A stretch of DNA of 64,000 nucleotides. It comes from a bacterium. GTDB lineage: Bacteria; Chloroflexota; Anaerolineae; Caldilineales; Caldilineaceae. The stretch is from NCBI GenBank assembly GCA_016124945.1, contig WGMT01000024.1:124001-188000 (forward strand), in the 5' to 3' direction. The position numbers were made by a program, and so were the translations under genes. The notes beneath the pieces were generated by a model. It did not search any database. It was not told where the DNA came from and worked only from the letters and a program-made list of their open reading frames with translations. Shown here piece by piece: positions 2,110 through 64,000 of the stretch (positions are counted from its first letter, which is position 1; each line of letters begins with the position of its first letter).

Positions 2110-3024
2110 ATGAAAGGTCTGTTCCGACTGTTTGCTTTGTTGATCCTTGTCGTTGCTGTGGCAGCCTGTGTGCAGGTTGCACCGGCCCCTGCGCCTGGCG
2201 ATTCGGGCAGTAGTGAAGGTGGCGACGCCGCTGCGCCCGCCGACGATCTGCTGGCCGAAATCATGGACCGTGGCACCATTCGCATCTCCACCGATCCCAA
2301 CTACGAGCCGCAGTCGTTCCTCAATTCCGACGGCGAATTCGTCGGCTTTGATGTGGACGTGGCACGCGAGATCGCAAGCCGCCTTGGTGTGGAAGTGGAA
2401 TTCGTCACCCCCGACTGGGATCTGATCACCGCCGGCAACTGGGGCGGCCAATGGGACATGAGCGTCGGCTCCATGGCCGTCACCACCGGCCGCGACGAAG
2501 TGCTCGAATTCGCCAACCCACCCTACTACTACACCCCGGCCCAGTTTGCCGCCACCACGGCTTCGGGTATCACCACGCTTGAGCAGTTGAATGGCCAGCC
2601 CATCTGTGTGGGCGTCTCCACCACCTACGAAACCTGGCTCAGCGGCGATTTGGAAGCACTGGGCCTGCCCGCCAGCAGCTACTACCACGAGCCGCCCACC
2701 GATGTCACCGTGATCCCGTTGCAGACGGACAACGAATGCGCACAGCAGATCCAGGCCGGTCGTAGCGAATTCAGCGTCTTCCTCACCTCCAACACCGTCG
2801 TAGAAGCCGCCATCCGTGAAGGCGTGGACATCGTCAAGGTCAACGGCGCCGTCTTCTCCGAAAACCTGGCCGCCGCCTTCGACGAAGCCTCCACCAAGGA
2901 CATCACCGGCCTCAAGGACCGTGTCGGCGAGATCATCCAAGAAATGCACGACGACGGCACCCTGAGCGAGATTTCGATGGAATGGTTTGGTGAGGATCTG
3001 ACGATGGATCCGTCGGCGCAGTAG
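2110..3024 (+). CDS. Polar amino-acid ABC transporter substrate-binding lipoprotein
   Basis: A 304-residue SBP_bac_3-type protein (PBP type II fold). It has a lipoprotein signal peptide with lipobox VAAC (Cys20), an acidic/Pro-Ala linker, then the ligand domain (about residues 45-295) starting with ...IRISTDPNYEPQSF. The family delivers polar amino acids or small nitrogen compounds to a permease/ATPase pair. Here the matching permease (5790) and ATPase (6641) lie downstream behind two hydrolase genes. An AGGAG at about 2099-2103 precedes the ATG. A 7-base-unit hairpin element starts 5 bases after its stop codon. Confidence 0.92.
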   Translation: MKGLFRLFALLILVVAVAACVQVAPAPAPGDSGSSEGGDAAAPADDLLAEIMDRGTIRISTDPNYEPQSFLNSDGEFVGFDVDVAREIASRLGVEVEFVTPDWDLITAGNWGGQWDMSVGSMAVTTGRDEVLEFANPPYYYTPAQFAATTASGITTLEQLNGQPICVGVSTTYETWLSGDLEALGLPASSYYHEPPTDVTVIPLQTDNECAQQIQAGRSEFSVFLTSNTVVEAAIREGVDIVKVNGAVFSENLAAAFDEASTKDITGLKDRVGEIIQEMHDDGTLSEISMEWFGEDLTMDPSAQ

Positions 3025-3028
3025 AGAT

Positions 3029-3163
3029 AAATGAGTAAGGAGTAATAAGTAGGGGAAGGGGACATATCGTCACAAATGCTTGCCGTCTCGTTGACGAAGC
3101 GAGCTGCATTCGCGACGACACATACCCTTCCCCTACTCATTATTCATTACTCATTACTCATTT
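3029..3163. repeat. Heptad hairpin element (GAGTAAT family)
   Basis: The left arm 3029-3060 and right arm 3125-3163 are complementary runs of a degenerate 7-base unit (GAGTAAT/GAGTAAG) ending in the same GGGGAAGGG block. The right arm is 39 bases and the left 32, a difference of exactly one 7-base unit. The spacer 3061-3124 is itself weakly palindromic (ACATATCGTCACAAATGC against the reverse complement of 3106-3123, differing mainly by transitions). The element fills the gap between the stop at 3024 and the start at 3193. Confidence 0.8.
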
Positions 3164-4533: not shown

Positions 4534-4540
4534 TTCGTAG

Positions 4541-4604
4541 GATGGGTTACGACCGCACGTGTGACCAATGGGTGTCTCGCCAAGATCGGCGGTCGTAACC
4601 CATC
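4541..4604. repeat. REP-like palindrome (GGGTTACG family)
   Basis: GATGGGTTACGACCGC at 4541-4556 is perfectly complementary to 4589-4604, with a 32-base loop. The left flank TTCGTAG and this GGGTTACG core resemble palindromic intergenic repeats that I recall from many bacterial genomes, often linked to REP-associated tyrosine transposases. No transposase gene lies in the window. A TAGTGCG-family remnant (GACTACGCATTA) follows at 4608-4619. Confidence 0.65.
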
Positions 4605-4646
4605 AGGGACTACGCATTAACAACCACGTCCGCGTTCGAACATGCT

Positions 4647-4673
4647 CTCGTAGACCCGCACGAGGGCGTGCTC
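4647..4673. repeat. Half copy of the hairpin repeat at 43.1 kb
   Basis: This 27-base stretch matches 43152-43180 except for a 2-base gap and one substitution (shared core TAGACCCGCACG, then GGGCGTGCTC). At 43.1 kb the sequence is the loop and part of the right arm of a 31-bp-stem hairpin; here the left arm is missing. It lies 45 bases before the start of the DDAH-like gene. Confidence 0.6.
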
Positions 4674-4718: not shown

Positions 4719-5606
4719 ATGCGACCGATTGGTTCGCAGTCGATGGTGGATGAACTGAACTATGTAATCGTCAAGCACCCGCGCCATTCGCACGTGGATC
4801 AGGCGAATGTCGACGCGCAGTGGCAGGCGCTTAATTATTTGAGCCGTCCTGATTTGGGACAGGTGCTGACCGAGTTTGACGAGTTCGTGTCGCTGCTCAA
4901 CGGTTTCGGCACGGAGATCGGAACGTTGCCGCCGTCCTCGGGCGTGGGATTGGATTCGATCTACACCCACGATCCGGTGGTGATTACGAACAGGGGCGCG
5001 ATTCTATGTACGATGGGCAAGGCGGCGCGCTTGGTTGAGGCCGACGCCTTCGCCGCATACCTGCGCAGCATGGACGTGCCCATCCTGGGCCGCATTGAGC
5101 CGCCCGGCACGCTGGAAGGCGGCGACGTCTGCTGGATCGACGAGCGCACTGTCGCCGTGGGCGAAGGCTACCGCACCAACGCCGAGGGCATTCGCCAATT
5201 TCGTGCGTTGCTGGGCGACGCCGTCGACGAGGTGATCCCCGTGCCGCTGCCCCACTGGAACGGACCCGACGAGTGTCTGCACCTGCTCTCGTTGATTAGC
5301 CCCGTTGACCACGATCTGGCCGTTGTCTACTCGCGGCTGATGCCGGTGCCTTTCCGCCAATGGCTCCTCGCCCGTGGCATCCACCTGATCGAAGTACCCG
5401 ACGAGGAATATGATTCCTTCGCCTGCAACGTGCTGACCGTCTCTCCCGGAAAAGTCATCATGATCGCCGGCAACCCCATCACCCAATCCCGCCTCGAAGC
5501 CGCCGGCGTCGAAGTGTCCACCTTTTCGGGCCAGGATCTCTGCATCAAAGGCGGCGGCGGGCCGACGTGTTTGACGCGACCAGTCCTGCGGACGACTAAC
5601 AGGTGA
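4719..5606 (+). CDS. DDAH/amidinotransferase superfamily hydrolase
   Basis: A 295-residue protein of the guanidino-group-modifying superfamily (dimethylarginine dimethylaminohydrolase, arginine deiminase and relatives). Catalytic elements are visible: YTHDP (Asp85), TLEGGDV (Glu133, Asp136), GYRTN (Arg152), ECLHLL (His188) and the C-terminal nucleophile in GGGPTCLT (Cys284). The expected reaction is hydrolysis of a (methyl)guanidino compound to citrulline or a urea plus an amine; the exact substrate is not decided by these motifs. The start at 4719 has GAAAGG 7 bases upstream. Its stop TGA (5604-5606) is the first three bases of a 7-base-unit array. Confidence 0.85.
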   Translation: MRPIGSQSMVDELNYVIVKHPRHSHVDQANVDAQWQALNYLSRPDLGQVLTEFDEFVSLLNGFGTEIGTLPPSSGVGLDSIYTHDPVVITNRGAILCTMGKAARLVEADAFAAYLRSMDVPILGRIEPPGTLEGGDVCWIDERTVAVGEGYRTNAEGIRQFRALLGDAVDEVIPVPLPHWNGPDECLHLLSLISPVDHDLAVVYSRLMPVPFRQWLLARGIHLIEVPDEEYDSFACNVLTVSPGKVIMIAGNPITQSRLEAAGVEVSTFSGQDLCIKGGGGPTCLTRPVLRTTNR

Positions 5607-5772
5607 CGACGGACGACCGACGACGGACGACCGACGACCGACGACTGGATCGTCATTTACCTTGAGACTTCGTTATCGTTCCTTTTTTGACTTGTACTTG
5701 TTTGCCACACAAAATTGTTCCATTTTAGGTGTAACGTACTGATGGGTGGCTGTCGTCAGTCGTCCATCGTCT
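5604..5772. repeat. Heptad element (NGACGAC family)
   Basis: Six 7-base units of the form NGACGAC run from 5604 to 5645. Three complementary units (GTCGTCN form) lie at 5752-5772, just before the permease ribosome site at 5778-5784. The spacer of about 105 bases is AT-rich and shows no strong inner palindrome. The stop codon of the DDAH-like gene is part of the first unit. Confidence 0.75.
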
Positions 5773-8202: not shown

Positions 8203-9099
8203 ATGACAACCACACTAGAACGCCCTCTGATCAGCAACGGCTTTACCCTGTCCCCCCAAATTCTAGGACAACTCCAACCATCCGATTCGTCCGCCCCCAT
8301 TGAGGATCTGCGTGCGCAATACCGGGCTCAGGGCTACCTGTGGCTTAAACACTTCCTCCCCCGCGAGGACGTGCTCGCCTTCCGCCGCCGCTTCTTCGCC
8401 GCTTTCGCCGAGACCGGTCTGCTGGCAGAAGGCACCGATCCTGTGGATGGTATCTACAGCGGCCACGAAGACCGCGACCAATCGCGCAAGTTGATGATGG
8501 AAGCCGTGCGCTGGGCATCCTACGAATCGTTCTGCTTCGCGCCGCGCATCTGGCAGTTCTACGAGGAATTCCTGGGTGGGCCGGTCTACCTGCACAAACG
8601 CAAGATCATGCGCTACACCCGTCCCCATGATGTCAACTGCACCGGCGCGCACTACGATCTCACCTACCTGCGCGGCGGCACAGACAGTGTCTGCACCAGT
8701 TGGTTCCCCATCGGTGATATTCCTGTAGAGATGGGCGGGCTGGTCTATCTCGAAGGTTCCGACCGTTGGGGTCGAGAGATGGAAGAAGAATTCCGCGCCA
8801 ACAATGCCGACCTTTCCCCCGAAGAACGCATCAGCGCCTACAACAAAAACATGGCCCAAGGCGGCTGGCTAAGCAAGGATCTGCCCAACCTGGCCGAACG
8901 TATGGGCAGCCGCTGGCTCGTCGCCGATTTCGAGGCCGGCGACATGATGGTACACAGCGCCTACATGATCCACGCCGCCACCGTCAACGAGAGCGACGAA
9001 GGCCGCATGCGCCTTTCCACCGACATCCGCTATCAACTCGTCCGCGAGGAGATCGACCAGCGCTGGCAGAATCACTGGTCGCTGGACGACATGTTGTAG
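8203..9099 (+). CDS. Phytanoyl-CoA dioxygenase (PhyH) family oxygenase
   Basis: A 298-residue Fe(II)/2-oxoglutarate-dependent oxygenase of the PhyH family. The iron ligands are seen in GAHYDLTY (HxD) and the distal His in MVHSAYMIHAA, and the 2-oxoglutarate Arg in RMRLSTDIRYQ. Family members hydroxylate lipids, ectoine or other small molecules, so the substrate is undefined. The start at 8203 has AAGGA 8-12 bases upstream and lies 14 bases after the toxin stop. Clustering with a Rieske oxygenase suggests an oxidative breakdown route (inference). Confidence 0.85.
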   Translation: MTTTLERPLISNGFTLSPQILGQLQPSDSSAPIEDLRAQYRAQGYLWLKHFLPREDVLAFRRRFFAAFAETGLLAEGTDPVDGIYSGHEDRDQSRKLMMEAVRWASYESFCFAPRIWQFYEEFLGGPVYLHKRKIMRYTRPHDVNCTGAHYDLTYLRGGTDSVCTSWFPIGDIPVEMGGLVYLEGSDRWGREMEEEFRANNADLSPEERISAYNKNMAQGGWLSKDLPNLAERMGSRWLVADFEAGDMMVHSAYMIHAATVNESDEGRMRLSTDIRYQLVREEIDQRWQNHWSLDDML

Positions 9100-11345: not shown

Positions 11346-11461
11346 TCTAGTCATCAGTGCACCGCCAATCCGCACCCGGCTGCTGCTCCTGGGCGTGCGC
11401 ATTGGGGAGCGCGGCAGCGTGCGTGAGATTATTGCTCTACTCACATAACAAGGAGAAACCC

Positions 11462-12496
11462 ATGTCCCCCACCCAATCTCCCCTCCGCATTGGCATCATC
11501 GGCGCCGGCTGGCCCGGTGAACGGCACACCGAAGGCTTCACCGCCTGCGGCGACGCCGTGGTGACAGCCGTCGCCGATCTGGAAACGACACGCCGTGAAG
11601 CATTTGCCACCCGCTATCACGTCCCCAAACAGTACGCCGATTACCACGATCTACTGGCCGATTCCGAAGTCGATGCCGTAATGATCGCGCTGCCCAATCA
11701 CCTGCACAAACCATCTACGATTGCAGCGTTACAGGCGGGCAAGCATGTCTTCTGCGAGAAGCCGCCTGCCGTCAACACCGCCGAGGCCAGGGAAATGGCC
11801 GATGTCGCCGCCGCCCAAGGACTCGTCCTCGGCTATGCCACCCGCCGTCGCTACAACCCCACCACCGACCGGCTGGCCGAGCGGATCGCCCGTGGCGAAC
11901 TGGGCGAGATCTACCACGCCCGTTCGGTATGGACGCGTAGCTGGGGTGTGCCGCAAGGCGTCGGCGGCTGGTTCGTCGATCCGCTGCGTGCAGGCGGTGG
12001 GGCGCTCATTGACATCGGCATCCACGTCCTCGATCAGGCGTGGTTCCTCATGGGCTGCCCCAAACCGGTGACCATCTCCGGTTCGGTCTTCAACAAATTC
12101 CCCGAACTCACCGGCACCGACGACAGCGCCTTCGCCCTCATCCGCTTCGAAGACGGGCGCAGCCTGCACGTCGAAGCCGCCTGGGTCCTCGCCCAGCCCA
12201 AAGACATTCAAGACGTCCACATCTACGGCACCCAAGGCGGTGCTCGCCTCGACGACGACACGCTGGACTACTACAACGTAGGCCCCGATGGCGCAACCAC
12301 CCTTACGCCTAGATTCCCGCGCGGCCAGGCCGCGTCCTTTGTGGCGATGGCCGTAGACTTCGCCCACGCCGTGCGCACCGGCGGCCAAACCCGCACCAGC
12401 GCCGAACAGGGCGTCCTCTTGATGGCCATGCTGGAGGGGATCTACCGGTCGGGGAAGATAGGGCGGGAGATGGCGGTGGACGACGTTGTTGGATAG
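11462..12496 (+). CDS. Gfo/Idh/MocA family oxidoreductase
   Basis: A 344-residue NAD(P)-dependent dehydrogenase. It has the N-terminal Rossmann motif GIIGAGWPGERH, the family motif FCEKPPAV, and the beta-sheet substrate domain (GGALIDIGIHVLDQAW). The family oxidises or reduces sugars, inositols and related alcohols. AGGAG at 11451-11455 sets the start at 11462; the frame upstream crosses the terminator region. Its stop TAG (12494-12496) is part of the first unit of a TAGTGCG array. Together with the MDR gene at 12648 it may oxidise an alcohol product of the oxygenases (inference). Confidence 0.9.
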   Translation: MSPTQSPLRIGIIGAGWPGERHTEGFTACGDAVVTAVADLETTRREAFATRYHVPKQYADYHDLLADSEVDAVMIALPNHLHKPSTIAALQAGKHVFCEKPPAVNTAEAREMADVAAAQGLVLGYATRRRYNPTTDRLAERIARGELGEIYHARSVWTRSWGVPQGVGGWFVDPLRAGGGALIDIGIHVLDQAWFLMGCPKPVTISGSVFNKFPELTGTDDSAFALIRFEDGRSLHVEAAWVLAQPKDIQDVHIYGTQGGARLDDDTLDYYNVGPDGATTLTPRFPRGQAASFVAMAVDFAHAVRTGGQTRTSAEQGVLLMAMLEGIYRSGKIGREMAVDDVVG

Positions 12497-12594
12497 TGCG
12501 TAGTGCGTAGTACGTAGTACGTAGTACGTAGTACGTAAAGCAAGCCTCCCTATAGCGGCGAAACTATCTTTACGGACTACGCACTACGCACTAT
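12493..12594. repeat. Heptad hairpin element (TAGTGCG/TAGTACG family)
   Basis: ATAGTGCGTAGTGCGTAGT at 12493-12511 is perfectly complementary to 12576-12594. Past this 19-bp stem the left arm carries three extra TAGTACG units before TAAAG, while the right arm goes straight to the matching CTTTA. The arms therefore differ by exactly 21 bases. The element occupies most of the 151-base gap between two co-directional genes. Confidence 0.85.
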
Positions 12595-12647: not shown

Positions 12648-13700
12648 ATGCCACGCGGACTCTACGTCGATCAGCCGCAACACGTGATTTTGGCAGAATA
12701 CGAAGACGGCCCGATTCAGCCGGATCAGGTGCGCTTTCGTAGTGAATTTGCCGCCATCAAGCATGGCACGATTTTTCATCTGTTTAGCGGCGAATCGCCC
12801 TTTCAGGATCAGCGTTTCGATTCTGAGCAGCGTCTCTTTGTAAAGAAGGAGAACCCTGACACGCAGCCGGGCGGCATGTTGGGCCAGTTCGTCGGCAACA
12901 TCGCCGTCGGCGCGGTGACGGAAGTGGGCAGCGCCGTGGACAATTTCGCCGTCGGGCAGCGAGTTTACTGTTACGGTCCCATCGCGGAGACGGTGACCCG
13001 CTCCTCCGCCCAGGTGCATCCCCTGCCCGACGCCGTCTCGCCCGAAGACGCCGTCTGCCTCGATCCGGCGCTCTACGCCTACGCCGCCGTGCGCGATGCC
13101 CGCATCACCTTAGGCGACAATACCGTGGTCACCGGCCTGGGCGCAATCGGCCTCTTCGTGGTGCAACTGCTGGTGCAGGCGGGTTGTCTCAACGTCATCG
13201 CCGTGGACCCGCTGCCCAAGCGCCGTGCTCTGGCGGAAAAATTAGGCGCCCACCTCACACTCGATCCCACTTCCACCGATGTGGGCCTCGCCGTACGCCA
13301 CGCATTAGGACAGGGCGCAGATGTCGCCATTGAAGCCAGCGGCAACTACCGGGCGCTGAACGACGCCATGCGTTCCGTGCAGCAGTGCGCCCGTATTGTC
13401 ACCCTCGGCTACTACAAGGGCGATCACAGCCATGTGCCGTTTGGCGCAGAGTGGCACCACAATCGCCTCGAACTCGTTAGCAGTATGCCGGTATGGGACA
13501 ACCCAACCCGCGAGCATCCGCTTTGGGATCTCCACCGCCTGGAACGCACGGTGTTGGCCTTCTTCGAGCGCAAAGTGCTCACGTCCAACGAACTGGTGGA
13601 TCCGATTGTCCCCTTTGCAGAGGCCGCAGATGCCTTCCTCGCCGTCTACGCCGACCCCGTGCAGGCGATCAAATTGGGCGTGCGTTTCTCTGGTGGATGA
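12648..13700 (+). CDS. MDR family (zinc-type) alcohol dehydrogenase-like protein
   Basis: A 350-residue medium-chain dehydrogenase/reductase. The GroES-like N-terminal half (GQFVGNIAVGAVTEVGS, FAVGQRVY) is followed by a Rossmann domain with TGLGAIGLFVVQLL and an acidic NAD-binding Asp in VIAVDP. The usual run of structural-zinc cysteines is not visible, so it may be a zinc-poor member. Its start has TTTCGGAGG upstream. It likely acts with the Gfo/Idh/MocA enzyme just before it; the substrate is unknown. Confidence 0.87.
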   Translation: MPRGLYVDQPQHVILAEYEDGPIQPDQVRFRSEFAAIKHGTIFHLFSGESPFQDQRFDSEQRLFVKKENPDTQPGGMLGQFVGNIAVGAVTEVGSAVDNFAVGQRVYCYGPIAETVTRSSAQVHPLPDAVSPEDAVCLDPALYAYAAVRDARITLGDNTVVTGLGAIGLFVVQLLVQAGCLNVIAVDPLPKRRALAEKLGAHLTLDPTSTDVGLAVRHALGQGADVAIEASGNYRALNDAMRSVQQCARIVTLGYYKGDHSHVPFGAEWHHNRLELVSSMPVWDNPTREHPLWDLHRLERTVLAFFERKVLTSNELVDPIVPFAEAADAFLAVYADPVQAIKLGVRFSGG

Positions 13701-13756
13701 TAGTGATTCCTTTTTGCCAAAGGGATAGCTCTACGCTAGGATCTGGCTACTTAAAA

Positions 13757-13791
13757 TCGCAACTCGCAATCCGTAATCCGCAACTCGCAAT
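13757..13791. repeat. Single heptad arm (CGCAATT family)
   Basis: Five 7-base units of the form [TC]CG[CT]AA[CT] span 13757-13791 and stop just before the GGAG ribosome site of the next gene. No complementary arm is seen in the gap of about 100 bases, so this is a half element. The same unit family forms a two-arm element at 54.6 kb. Confidence 0.7.
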
Positions 13792-13801
13792 GGAGAAACC
13801 C

Positions 13802-15463
13802 ATGACCATCAAACGCTCAACGATCCTCCCTGTGATCATATTGCTGTTGGGGTTGTTGATCAGCGCCTGTGTGGCGCCGACTGCACCTGCCACCCCAACC
13901 GACGGCACCCCTGCTCCCGCCGAAGAAGCCACTGCCCCCTCGGCTGGTGCAGGCGAAGCAGACACCGTCGCCGATAAAGGCATCCGCAACTTCGTCTACC
14001 GCGACCTGCCCGATCTGGGTGGGCGCAGCGTGGCCGTCGTCACCTCGAACAGCTACCTGCCGCTGAACTTCGTCGATCCCCTCACCGGCGAGGAAGGTGG
14101 TTGGGAGTATGACGCCGTCAAGGAGATCTGCCGCCGCCTCAATTGCACCGTGGAATGGGGCGTCAGCTCCTGGGAAGCCATGATCCCCGCCGTCGCCCAA
14201 GGACAGTTCGACCTGGGCATGGACGGCATCACCATCACCGAAGAGCGCGCCCAGCAGGTCGATTTCTCCGATCCCTACATGACCAGCCAACAGTTTATGC
14301 TGGTGAGCGCCGATGAAGATCGTTTTGCCACGCCCGAAGAGTTCGCCGCCGATGAGTCGCTGCTTGTGGGCGCGCAGACCGGCACCACCGGCTTCTACAC
14401 CGCCGTCTACGACATTTTGGACGGTGACGAAGCGAACCCCCGCGTCATCGTCTTCGACGACTTCGGCGCAACGGTGCAGGCGCTCATCGCCGGTGACATC
14501 GACCTCGTCCTTGTAGACGCGGCCAGTGGGCGCGGCTACATCGGCGCCAATCCAGAGGCGTTGAAAATCGTGGGCGACGCCCTCGCCACCGAAGACTTCG
14601 GCTTCATCTTCACGCCTGGCTCCGAATTCGTGGAACCTTTCAACGCAGCCCTGGCCACCATGAAGGCCGACGGTTACACGGCTTACCTGGACAGTCGTTG
14701 GTTCTTCCTCACCAACACCAACGGCGAGGACATCTACGATCAACTGCCCGACCTGGGCGGCCAGACCATCGCCGCCGTCACCTCCAACGACTACCCGCCC
14801 CTAAGCACCATGGATCCGCAGACCGGCATCGAAGGTGGCTGGGAGTATGATGTGGTCAACGAGATCTGCCGCCGCTTGAATTGCACCGTGGAATGGGGCC
14901 TCTCTTCGTGGTCGGCCATGATTCCGGCTGTCTCCGAAGGCCAGTTCGATGTGGGCATGGACGGCATCACCATCACCGAAGAACGCGCCCAGCAGGTCGA
15001 TTTCTCTATTCCGTACATGACCAGCCAGCAGTTTATGCTGGTGGCGGCCGATGAAGATCGCTTCAGCACACCTGAGGAGTTTGCCGCCGACGAGTCGCTG
15101 TTGGTGGCCGCACAGACGGGCAGTACCGGCTTTTACACCGCCATCTACAATGTCCTCGACGGCGACGAAAGCAACCCCCGCGTCCTCATCTTCGACGACT
15201 TCGGGGCGATGGTGCAAGCGCTCATCGCCGGTGACGTTGACCTTGTCCTCGTGGATGCGGCCAGCGGGCGCGGTTACATCGGCGCCAACCCCGATGCTCT
15301 GAAGATCGTGGGCGATGCCCTCGCTACCGACAACTTCGGTTTCATCTTCCAACTTGGCTCCGACCTCGTCGAACCCTTCAACGCCGCCATCGAAACCATC
15401 CAGGCCGACGGCTACGGCGAGTATCTGAACACGAAGTGGTTCTTCCTCTACAGCCCGAATTAG
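13802..15463 (+). CDS. Tandem-domain ABC substrate-binding lipoprotein
   Basis: A 553-residue lipoprotein (lipobox LISAC, Cys23) that carries two complete SBP_bac_3 domains in a row. The domains repeat with a 738-base (246-residue) period. The first starts near 14003 (DLPDLGGRSVAVVTSN) and the second near 14741 (QLPDLGGQTIAAVTSN). They are nearly identical over long stretches, e.g. GGWEYD, EICRRLNCTVEWG and GQFD.GMDGITITEERAQQ. Normal family members have one domain. This points to a recent in-frame duplication giving a two-site binding protein for the permease at 15595. GGAG at 13792-13795 precedes the ATG. Confidence 0.92.
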   Translation: MTIKRSTILPVIILLLGLLISACVAPTAPATPTDGTPAPAEEATAPSAGAGEADTVADKGIRNFVYRDLPDLGGRSVAVVTSNSYLPLNFVDPLTGEEGGWEYDAVKEICRRLNCTVEWGVSSWEAMIPAVAQGQFDLGMDGITITEERAQQVDFSDPYMTSQQFMLVSADEDRFATPEEFAADESLLVGAQTGTTGFYTAVYDILDGDEANPRVIVFDDFGATVQALIAGDIDLVLVDAASGRGYIGANPEALKIVGDALATEDFGFIFTPGSEFVEPFNAALATMKADGYTAYLDSRWFFLTNTNGEDIYDQLPDLGGQTIAAVTSNDYPPLSTMDPQTGIEGGWEYDVVNEICRRLNCTVEWGLSSWSAMIPAVSEGQFDVGMDGITITEERAQQVDFSIPYMTSQQFMLVAADEDRFSTPEEFAADESLLVAAQTGSTGFYTAIYNVLDGDESNPRVLIFDDFGAMVQALIAGDVDLVLVDAASGRGYIGANPDALKIVGDALATDNFGFIFQLGSDLVEPFNAAIETIQADGYGEYLNTKWFFLYSPN

Positions 15464-15464
15464 G

Positions 15465-15587
15465 AAAGGGATTGGGGATTGGGGATTCGGGACTGGGGAC
15501 TGGGGATTGGGTAGACAAAGACTTGCCGCTGAAGTAAGTCTTGCTGTCTACCCAATCCCCAGTCCCCGATCCCCAGTCCCTAATCCC
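15465..15587. repeat. Heptad hairpin element (GGGGATT family)
   Basis: The left arm (about 15468-15516) and right arm (15546-15587) are complementary runs of GGGGATT/GGGGACT-type units. The left is longer by one 7-base unit. The stem continues inward through GTAGACA/TGTCTAC and AAGACTT/AAGTCTT, so the whole element can form one long hairpin. It starts 2 bases after the binding-protein stop and ends 7 bases before the permease ATG. Confidence 0.85.
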
Positions 15588-35129: not shown

Positions 35130-35220
35130 GTCATTCCTCTTTGCCGAAAATGGATACTACTCTTGACTCTGCCTATTGTCGCGTAGGTCCGCAGCGCTGG
35201 CAAACTTCTCTAACAGACTG

Positions 35221-35340
35221 GTTGTAATTCAAAGTTGGGGCGAACAGTGCCTGGCACGGGCCAAGCGCACATACGTTGACGGGTGCCCCACTGGCCCGTG
35301 CCAGGCACTGTGGCGAGCGCGCCCCCAACTTGAATTACAC
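35221..35340. repeat. REP-like quasi-palindrome (AGTGCCTGGCAC family), copy 1
   Basis: Left arm 35221-35263 and right arm 35292-35340 are complementary apart from small indels. They share TGTAATTCAA, a G-run and CAGTGCCTGGCACGGGCCA. A shorter copy lies at 37428-37497. No transposase gene is nearby. Confidence 0.75.
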
Positions 35341-35381
35341 CCAACAGAATTGCACACCCACTGCTGTAACATCGTCTAAAC

Positions 35382-43060: not shown

Positions 43061-43115
43061 CTGCTGATCTGTGACCGGCGATTCCGCCACGTATTGTAGG
43101 GGTTTCAGCACTCGA

Positions 43116-43193
43116 ATATCTGCGGAGAGAGCACGCCCACGTGCGGCTGTTCTCGTGTAGACCCGCACGTGGGCGTGCTCTCTCCGCAGATAT
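43116..43193. repeat. Long perfect hairpin repeat (31-bp stem)
   Basis: Arms 43116-43146 and 43163-43193 pair perfectly over 31 bp with a 16-base loop. The arm begins ATATCTGCGGAGAG. No T-run follows. A half copy of its loop and right arm lies at 4647-4673, so it is a dispersed element rather than a simple terminator. Confidence 0.85.
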
Positions 43194-43238
43194 CTGAATG
43201 ACACTGACTAATCACCAATCAACAACGGCTGGACGAGT

Positions 43239-44234: not shown

Positions 44235-44237
44235 ATG

Positions 44238-44341
44238 TAATGCGTGATGCGTAATGCGTGATGCGTGATTCGTTAACGGTATTGCAGCGCCATTGGGAAC
44301 CAATTGGGTTCACCAATTATGCATTACGAATTACGCATTAC
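44238..44341. repeat. Heptad hairpin element (TAATGCG/TGATGCG family)
   Basis: Six 7-base units (TAATGCG, TGATGCG and variants) run from 44238 to 44279. The complementary arm is 44313-44341, with four units. The spacer contains CAATTGGG/CCATTGGG repeats. The element lies between uvdE and the next gene, whose in-frame upstream extension runs through the right arm. Confidence 0.8.
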
Positions 44342-50982: not shown

Positions 50983-51080
50983 GATTGGGGGGTTAGGGAT
51001 CGGGGACTGGGGATCGGGTAGAGCAGACTCGCTCTACCCGATCCCCAGTCCCTAATCCCCAGTCCTTAATCCCCAATCCC
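50983..51080. repeat. Heptad hairpin element (GGGGATT family)
   Basis: Left arm 50983-51024 and right arm 51031-51080 are complementary GGGGATT/GGGGACT-type arrays closing on GTAGAGC/GCTCTAC with a 6-base loop. The right arm is longer by about one unit. It ends 1 base before the stop codon of the minus-strand permease (51082-51084). Confidence 0.85.
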
Positions 51081-59380: not shown

Positions 59381-59404
59381 TGGGGGAATATCCTTTCGTA
59401 CATG

Positions 59405-59503
59405 GGGATTGGGGATTGGTGATTGGGCAGCGATTGGGCGATTAAACGATTGGGAGATCGTGTACAGGATCTGAAATCGCCCAATCACCAATCACCAATC
59501 CCT
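59405..59503. repeat. Heptad hairpin element (GGGATTG/GTGATTG family)
   Basis: The left array 59405-59443 and right array 59475-59503 are complementary (GATTGGG and GATTGGTG-type units). The TAG stop of the FtsX-type gene (59504-59502) is part of the right array. The left end lies 25 bases from the start of the small protein gene. Confidence 0.8.
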
Positions 59504-63572: not shown

Positions 63573-63591
63573 GGTGAGACTCCTTGAGAAA

Positions 63592-63774
63592 TGACGACAG
63601 ACAACGGACGACGGAGGCCAGATGACGGACGACAGCAGAAGTGACTTCGCATGTCACCTGCAAACCTGCACCTTGCAACAGTGGGCCACACTGCTTAACT
63701 CAATGACATTGAGTACACTCATGCAGCTACGACACGAACGTCGTCCGTCGTCTGTCGTCCGTCGTCTGTTGTCA
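63592..63774. repeat. Heptad hairpin element (NGACGAC family)
   Basis: The left array 63592-63633 has six units (GGACGAC, AGACAAC and variants). The right array 63740-63774 has five complementary units. The spacer holds small hairpins (CTCAATGACATTGAG at 63700-63714 among them). The right array is inside the coding frame of the ATPase and encodes its tail. The unit is nearly the same as at 5604. Confidence 0.85.
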
Positions 63775-64000
63775 TCGCCGTGTCATACCCAATCCCATTA
63801 TCCGGGATGCCGTCGTCGATGATCTCGCCGTCTTTCATATGCACAATGCGGTTGCACAGAGCGCCGATCTTGGCGTCATGGGTGACGAGGACGAAGGTCT
63901 GGTTCTGTTCGCGATTGAGGCGTTGCATGATCGTCAATACATCGTCTGCTGTTTGGCTGTCGAGGTTGCCGGTAGGTTCGTCGGCCCAGACGATGGCGGG
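63719..64000 (-). CDS. ABC transporter ATP-binding protein, C-terminal part
   Basis: The last 93 codons of an ATPase whose start lies beyond 64000. Visible are the Walker B end and D-loop ([12 protein letters not shown]), the switch His (LVTHDAK) and the family end [12 protein letters not shown], typical of LolD/MacB ATPases. It is the partner of the FtsX permease at 59502. After about [14 protein letters not shown] the protein continues for 18 residues ([18 protein letters not shown]) encoded by the heptad array; the repeated TTDD reflects the 21-base (three-unit) period. Confidence 0.9.

Follow-up and report, generated by a model that had tools for sequence, protein, structure and literature searches.

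Heptamer repeats and intergenic palindromes in bacteria

The short tandem heptanucleotide repeats of cyanobacteria go by the name STRR, and REP sequences consist of a fixed palindrome without tandem units. Heptamer repeats of a convergent kind are described from Xanthomonas campestris and X. axonopodis, where copies of GGGAATC occur in large number throughout the genome and are mostly intergenic (Rehm et al. 2015, PMC4692102). Inverted pairs are reported there as always convergent (70 and 75 cases). The G-rich strand is the sense strand near a stop codon and the antisense strand upstream of the next open reading frame (ORF), and some repeats overlap the stop. The same account finds 90% of the repeats flanked by the same ORFs in the two species; it also mentions short tandem heptanucleotide repeats of the cyanobacteria Calothrix and Nostoc/Anabaena. 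Chloroflexus aurantiacus carries (GATAGRA)n satellites, as described in PMC6749651. A proposal relayed in PMC4679880 holds that 7 nt may be the contact length of a polymerase, which would favour slippage. In a literature search, heptad hairpins of Caldilineaceae were nowhere described; PMC4692102 and PMC6749651 come closest. The hairpins analysed here are a widespread and real feature, and a variant of the kind already described.

The window is a stretch of 64,000 nt (G000:C94:124001-188000) from the genome of a Chloroflexota bacterium (8.74 Mb in 107 contigs), here called G000. The comparison genome, G001, is that of a congener. The catalogue of hairpins covers 2.31 Mb, of which 1.795 Mb (with the window) come from G000 and 0.517 Mb from G001. 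Sampled stretches carry L-numbers; part of them were picked around repeat hits, so that they are enriched in heptads, and the others mostly by position in long contigs. The 175 heptad hairpins catalogued in the two genomes are thus a count for the sample and not a genome total. The assemblies are MAG-like (G000 is 98.46% complete with 9.24% contamination), and array lengths rest on the assembly.

Heptad hairpins of the window

The hairpin at 12.5 kb illustrates the general layout. Its left arm (12494–12537, forward strand, 44 nt) consists of two TAGTGCG units, four TAGTACG units and a final TA. A core or loop, to which no strand is assigned, follows at 12538–12570. The right arm (12571–12593, reverse strand, 23 nt) carries the reverse complement of two TAGTGCG units and one TAGTCCG, and is 21 nt shorter than the left. 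The first TAG of the left arm is the stop codon of the ORF at 11357–12496. At 3.0 kb, arms of the AATGAGT type lie at 3030–3051 (forward strand, 22 nt, three units) and 3134–3162 (reverse strand, 29 nt, four units), the left one beginning 6 nt past the stop of the ORF at 2110–3024. At 15.5 kb the units are of the GGGGAYT type: the left arm (15468–15511, forward strand, 44 nt, six units) begins 5 nt past the stop of the ORF at 13493–15463, and the right arm occupies 15551–15587 (reverse strand, 37 nt, five units). The arm differences of 21, 7 and 7 nt that had been read from these three hairpins are confirmed by the array coordinates (44/23, 22/29 and 44/37).

Further elements of the window vary in unit type and in the state of the orthologous place in G001. 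A TAATGCG-type hairpin at 44237–44341 has arms of 37 and 26 nt; G001 holds a short single array there. Opposite the GGGGAYT-type hairpin at 50983–51078, G001 has a recognizable left arm and a replaced core. A TGATTGG-type hairpin lies at 59403–59500 (arms 24 and 20 nt) and a GACGACG-type hairpin with a long core at 63591–63775 (arms 43 and 36 nt). A GACGACC array is followed, some 115 nt further downstream, by a shorter inverted partner, the element covering 5605–5770 with an approximate end; at the orthologous site G001 has a CGATTGA-type hairpin. A single CGCAACT/CGCAATC array (13754–13790) lies immediately before the start of the next gene.

Six window elements give strong predicted RNA folds (z −5 to −12 against shuffled sequence), the hairpins at 12.5, 3.0 and 15.5 kb scoring −5.1, −11.8 and −12.3. 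Fold-backs are far beyond chance expectation: 464 kb hold 71 with a score of 46 or more, and a codon-shuffled copy holds none. An Rfam scan of the window matched a tRNA only, with no known RNA family at the hairpins. Two other structures were noted in passing. A short hairpin with TAGTTCGTAG ends at 4534–4667 corresponds in G001 (C51, L061 about 8308–8381) to a single array of about ten TAGTGCG units, and at 35219–35343 there is a long hairpin without heptads, whose 20-nt arm (ACAGTGCCTGGCACGGGCCA) is perfect.

Period, polarity and position

Seven is the dominant period. In 845 kb of G000, 311 arrays have period 7, compared with 2–43 for each of the other periods from 4 to 15, the harmonic 14 excepted; 337 of 356 period-7 arrays found by TRF are free of indels. 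Polarity is equally uniform. The G-rich strand points inward in 166 of the 175 hairpins, is mixed or balanced in nine and points outward in none. The hairpins border on the upstream stop codon or extend over it: the median distance from stop to element edge is −1 nt, with 95 of 180 stops inside the element, and the median distance from hairpin to start codon is 24 nt.

Stop-bearing units favour ORF ends inside arrays, so orientation was tested again on arrays with the stop outside, 0–40 nt away. Near stops, G-rich sense outnumbers C-rich sense by 50:6 in paired and 23:7 in single arrays of G000, and by 17:2 and 24:7 in G001. Before starts the preference is for C sense over G sense, at 71:17 (paired) and 27:8 (single) in G000 and 15:3 (paired) in G001; for single G001 arrays the ratio of 14:9 is not significant. 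Runs of four G are confined to GGGGAYT-type units and are absent from TAGTGCG, TAATGCG, AATGAGT, CGATTGA and GACGACG units. G-quadruplex capability is ruled out as a general property, several unit types being without G-runs.

Composite forms also occur. In L024 (14940–15124), L028 (8868–9130) and L040 (12294–12455), outer arms of one unit type (e.g. TGATTCG, TAATGCG) enclose inner arms of TAGTGCG. At L044 16936–17402 and L164 10689–11119, two heptad hairpins or arrays apparently lie inside one conserved gene, perhaps in linkers, and the units differ between the two species.

Arm length and slippage

The sequence-only reading generalized from its three hairpins that arms differ by whole multiples of 7. 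This rule does not hold for the class. Array length differences modulo 7 fall into residues 0–6 as 31/36/26/29/22/13/18 among the 175 hairpins, so that only 31 fit, and the same window contains differences of 11 nt (44.2 kb) and 4 nt (59.4 kb). The spread over all residues arises because outer ends fray. A gapped alignment of 27 heptad-rich hairpins likewise gave gaps of many sizes, because alignments extended into cores, and internal indels with matched flanks were used instead. Seven of 13 such indels are multiples of 7 (five of 7 nt, one of 14, one of 28), a proportion to be read with the aligner's preference for multiples of 7 in heptad sequence; the remaining six measure 1, 1, 1, 2, 3 and 6 nt.

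Slippage of whole units inside one arm, which had been proposed as the source of the differences, is supported at individual sites. At 12.5 kb only the left arm has the fourfold TAGTACG. In L042 2606–2683 the right arm alone carries two additional outer TAGTACG units, and at the orthologous site L109/L071 two extra units are confined to the left arm of G001. A genome-wide signature of this process did not appear: adjacent units are no more alike than in shuffled arrays (lag-1 identity z −0.9), so single-unit slippage left no general trace. Identity at lag 2 is enriched in pooled arrays (z 5.0) and not in paired arms analysed by class.

Unit repertoires and probable turnover in two species

The spectra of unit types differ between the congeners (chi-square p 1e-10). 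Hairpins of G000 are distributed as TAGTGCG 34, GTGATTG 34, TAATGCG 26, GACGACG 15, CGATTGA 15, GGGGAYT 11, AATGAGT 7 and other 7; the corresponding G001 counts are 0, 2, 0, 0, 2, 4, 10 and 8. Within the sample, 72 of 93 TAGTGCG arrays in G000 have an inverted partner, compared with 0 of 16 in G001, where the genome-wide listing gives one facing pair (C70:2877 and 2929). The pattern TAGTGCGTAGTGCGTAGT was found in one of 151 Chloroflexota genomes drawn. A 17-base version of it occurs in 10 of 46 genomes of the family, with a facing pair in G181 (contig C206).

Presence of heptads at a given place is only weakly, and not significantly, associated between species. Orthologous intergenic regions hold them in both genomes in 13 cases, in one only in 11 and 7, and in neither in 17 (p 0.07). 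Variable coding stretches inflate the association of arrays obtained by anchor intervals (p 8e-10), which the intergenic test replaces. Hairpins counted by anchor intervals co-occur once, are present in one genome only in 15 and 10 intervals, and are absent from both in 241.

Co-variation of arms, the check proposed for arm-to-arm correction, does appear between species. At 11 of 12 orthologous sites, chosen by eye for a hairpin in both species and with end coordinates set by hand, the two arms of a hairpin match each other better than either matches the same-side arm of the other species. The scores include the paired core at the 51.0-kb site and some others; for the heptad part alone at 51.0 kb, the left–left score is 46 against within-element scores of 45 and 22, which favours neither pattern. 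Left out of the list were L088 and L111 with L063, which involve paralogous transporter genes, and L041/L074 8732, where the G000 side is a single array. Between-species scores lie at or near the shuffled level at L118, L042 2590, L045 and L048 2660 (left arms). There, TAGTGCG or GTGATTG units of G000 face AATGAGT or GGTATTG-type units of G001, and arms and core differ together. A unit match at the level of shuffled sequence points to replacement of whole hairpins, and not to repair of one arm. Copying from one arm to the other would leave core and unit type as they were, and the joint difference of arms and core is likewise read as whole-hairpin replacement. In a separate case, L109 4724–4760, a minimal hairpin in which TGACGAC faces CGTCGTCA is opposed in G001 by a full CGATTGA-type hairpin.

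Matching between arms and alternative explanations

The two arms of a hairpin share a unit type. The stronger claim, that they stay matched in unit sequence, was overstated, for exact unit matches are few. Counted from the inner end, the 15.5-kb hairpin has 2 of 5, the 3.0-kb hairpin has 1 of 3, and the 12.5-kb hairpin has 0 of 3, or 2 of 3 when the count starts outside. Median arm-to-arm identity is 0.89 and 16 of 175 hairpins have perfect arms. Beyond unit type, a modest element-specific matching is observed. An arm matches its own partner better than a random right arm of the class at 0.901 vs 0.860 for TAGTGCG and 0.801 vs 0.754 for GTGATTG; the figures for GACGACG (0.830 vs 0.823) and GGGGAYT (0.729 vs 0.707) are closer. 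The excess over permutation is about 3.5 sd for GTGATTG and TAGTGCG and about 5 sd for TAATGCG, which is a mixed class. In a best-match test that length differences blur, the partner was strictly best for 28 of 226 arm queries and tied for 23.

Ongoing correction, for instance by template switching in a quasi-palindrome, had been offered as the cause of this matching. In such a process an arm newly made during replication would fold back and take the other as template, so that variants and unit changes spread between arms. Template switching at inverted repeats and homogenization of arms are established elsewhere (PMC8794818, PMC8604942, PMC7202029), and the perfect arms, the element-specific matching and the 11-of-12 pattern speak for it; correction combined with rapid drift may also generate that pattern. 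Where arms can be traced, however, the evidence mostly speaks against correction. TAGTCCG, kept in the right arm at 12.5 kb, is present in both arms of L026 8092, L034 6997 and L049 11875, so by sequence comparison it is likely the older form relative to TAGTACG, and the change in the left arm was not copied across. At L109/L071, the one site where arms are clearly orthologous by side, heptad-arm scores are 64 (left–left) and 48 (right–right) between species against 46 and 42 within elements. Eight aligned paralogous copies of a TACCAG subfamily have core and arms in common, and among their heptad pairs (columns 11–28 with 136–153) two cells changed on both sides, four on one side and eight are unpaired. 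Tandemly doubled units are missing from the opposite arm in 47 of 285 cases. One-arm slippage is thus supported at individual sites and correction is unsupported where it can be followed, and we regard continuing correction as unlikely. Complementarity could instead be kept by selection for base pairing in the transcript, through protection of the mRNA 3′ end, termination or intercistronic control. The strong folds, the location at gene ends and the strand order fixed relative to the sense of transcription favour such a role; several tests speak against it as the cause of matching. Mismatches show no skew towards sense-strand G–U pairs, which number 61 against 83 for the antisense (p 0.08), the direction being, if anything, the reverse, and G–U wobble selection is rejected. 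No T-run, and so no U-run in the transcript, follows the right arms at 12.5, 3.0 and 15.5 kb, which speaks against intrinsic terminators there; a terminator scan also gave no match at these places, a weak test given its loop limit of 8. Whole-structure covariation in the TACCAG subfamily is weak, its score being reached by 34 of 500 shuffles. Transcript selection appears quite improbable as the force that keeps arms alike.

A further reading makes the hairpins non-autonomous mobile elements, MITE- or REP-like, with heptad ends and spread by a transposase. Dispersed copies with related cores are consistent with it, as are three Y1_Tnp matches in the genome, one of which (L078) lies between inverted heptad arrays. 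Most cores are unrelated, though: 56 of 3240 pairs exceed the shuffled maximum, one of them the self-match of a core listed under two right arms. Ten exact-ended TAGTGCG elements gave one target-site match at k=2 (0.9 expected under the null) and none at k=3–9, so that these ten show no target-site duplication of the MITE kind. No transposase is tied to heptad hairpins. The palindromes adjoining the Y1_Tnp gene of L078 form a separate REP-like family and are not of the heptad type; L077 has no heptad array and L079 has one unpaired array. We judge spread by a transposase very unlikely. As observations in their own right, the RAYT-like gene and palindromes of L078 sit between inverted TTCTGAT-type arrays (569–615 and 2253–2285), as though a heptad hairpin had received them in its loop, and a long hairpin of the window (43104–43198, TGCGGAG..AGCACGCCC..GTGCGG) resembles the palindromes at L078 1123–1234 and 1863–1934. 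This resemblance suggests that the heptad hairpins share the genome with a distinct REP/RAYT system. A more radical possibility, a dedicated process that writes whole hairpins at gene 3′ ends by machinery that measures 7 nt, makes both arms at once from species-specific units, keeps the sites and replaces the sequence, is highly doubtful.

A proposed model of paired birth, drift and turnover

The preferred reading, to which we assign a probability of roughly 0.55, combines paired birth of the arms, independent drift and turnover of whole hairpins. Arms would look matched because of their common birth and the species-wide repertoire of units, and not because of ongoing correction. The element consists of two short arrays of 7-nt units with their G-rich strands inward, positioned where a gene ends and ahead of the following start, and the hairpin often supplies the stop codon of the upstream gene. 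Both arms would arise together, either when an existing element disperses or through a single copying event by fold-back. Neither target-site duplication nor a tied transposase points to an agent for this step. Afterwards each arm would drift on its own, through point mutations and through the addition or loss of entire 7-nt units confined to that arm, as a few sites illustrate. In the longer term, hairpins are probably replaced at the same intergenic sites by other unit types, as the differences between the two species suggest. A role, if there is one, is likely that of an intercistronic or 3′-end hairpin, by analogy with REP sequences. The differing unit types at orthologous sites make the birth of hairpins directly testable by sequencing of strains.

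Comparison with known systems

Several described systems share part of this picture. The imperfect inverted repeats of quasi-palindrome template switching, as treated in PMC8794818, PMC8604942 and PMC7202029, are alike in having arms that can be homogenized; in the heptad hairpins no homogenization was detected where arms can be traced by side. REP/BIME palindromes with RAYT (PMC2817692) are also intergenic hairpins in many copies, but the REP-like family of G000 is distinct from the heptad hairpins. Cyanobacterial repeats, to the extent that PMC4692102 mentions them, are likewise intergenic heptanucleotide arrays, and their GGGGA(C/T)T units form one of the classes found here. The GATAGRA satellites of Chloroflexus are heptamer-derived repeats of the same phylum; they have a single unit, and the passages on them in PMC6749651 do not describe hairpin pairing.

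The closest known system is that of the convergent heptamer repeats of Xanthomonas, as presented in PMC4692102. Both have 7-nt units, an intergenic position, convergent pairs and the same rule of strand and stop codon. Xanthomonas has essentially one unit family, whereas at least seven types occur here, several of them without G-runs. Many enclose structured cores, and the unit types at orthologous sites often differ between the two congeners. The strand rule reported for a single unit in Xanthomonas thus recurs in another phylum with at least seven units. The rule is therefore independent of unit sequence, which suggests that one cause, linked both to the step of 7 nt and to the ends of genes, is shared.
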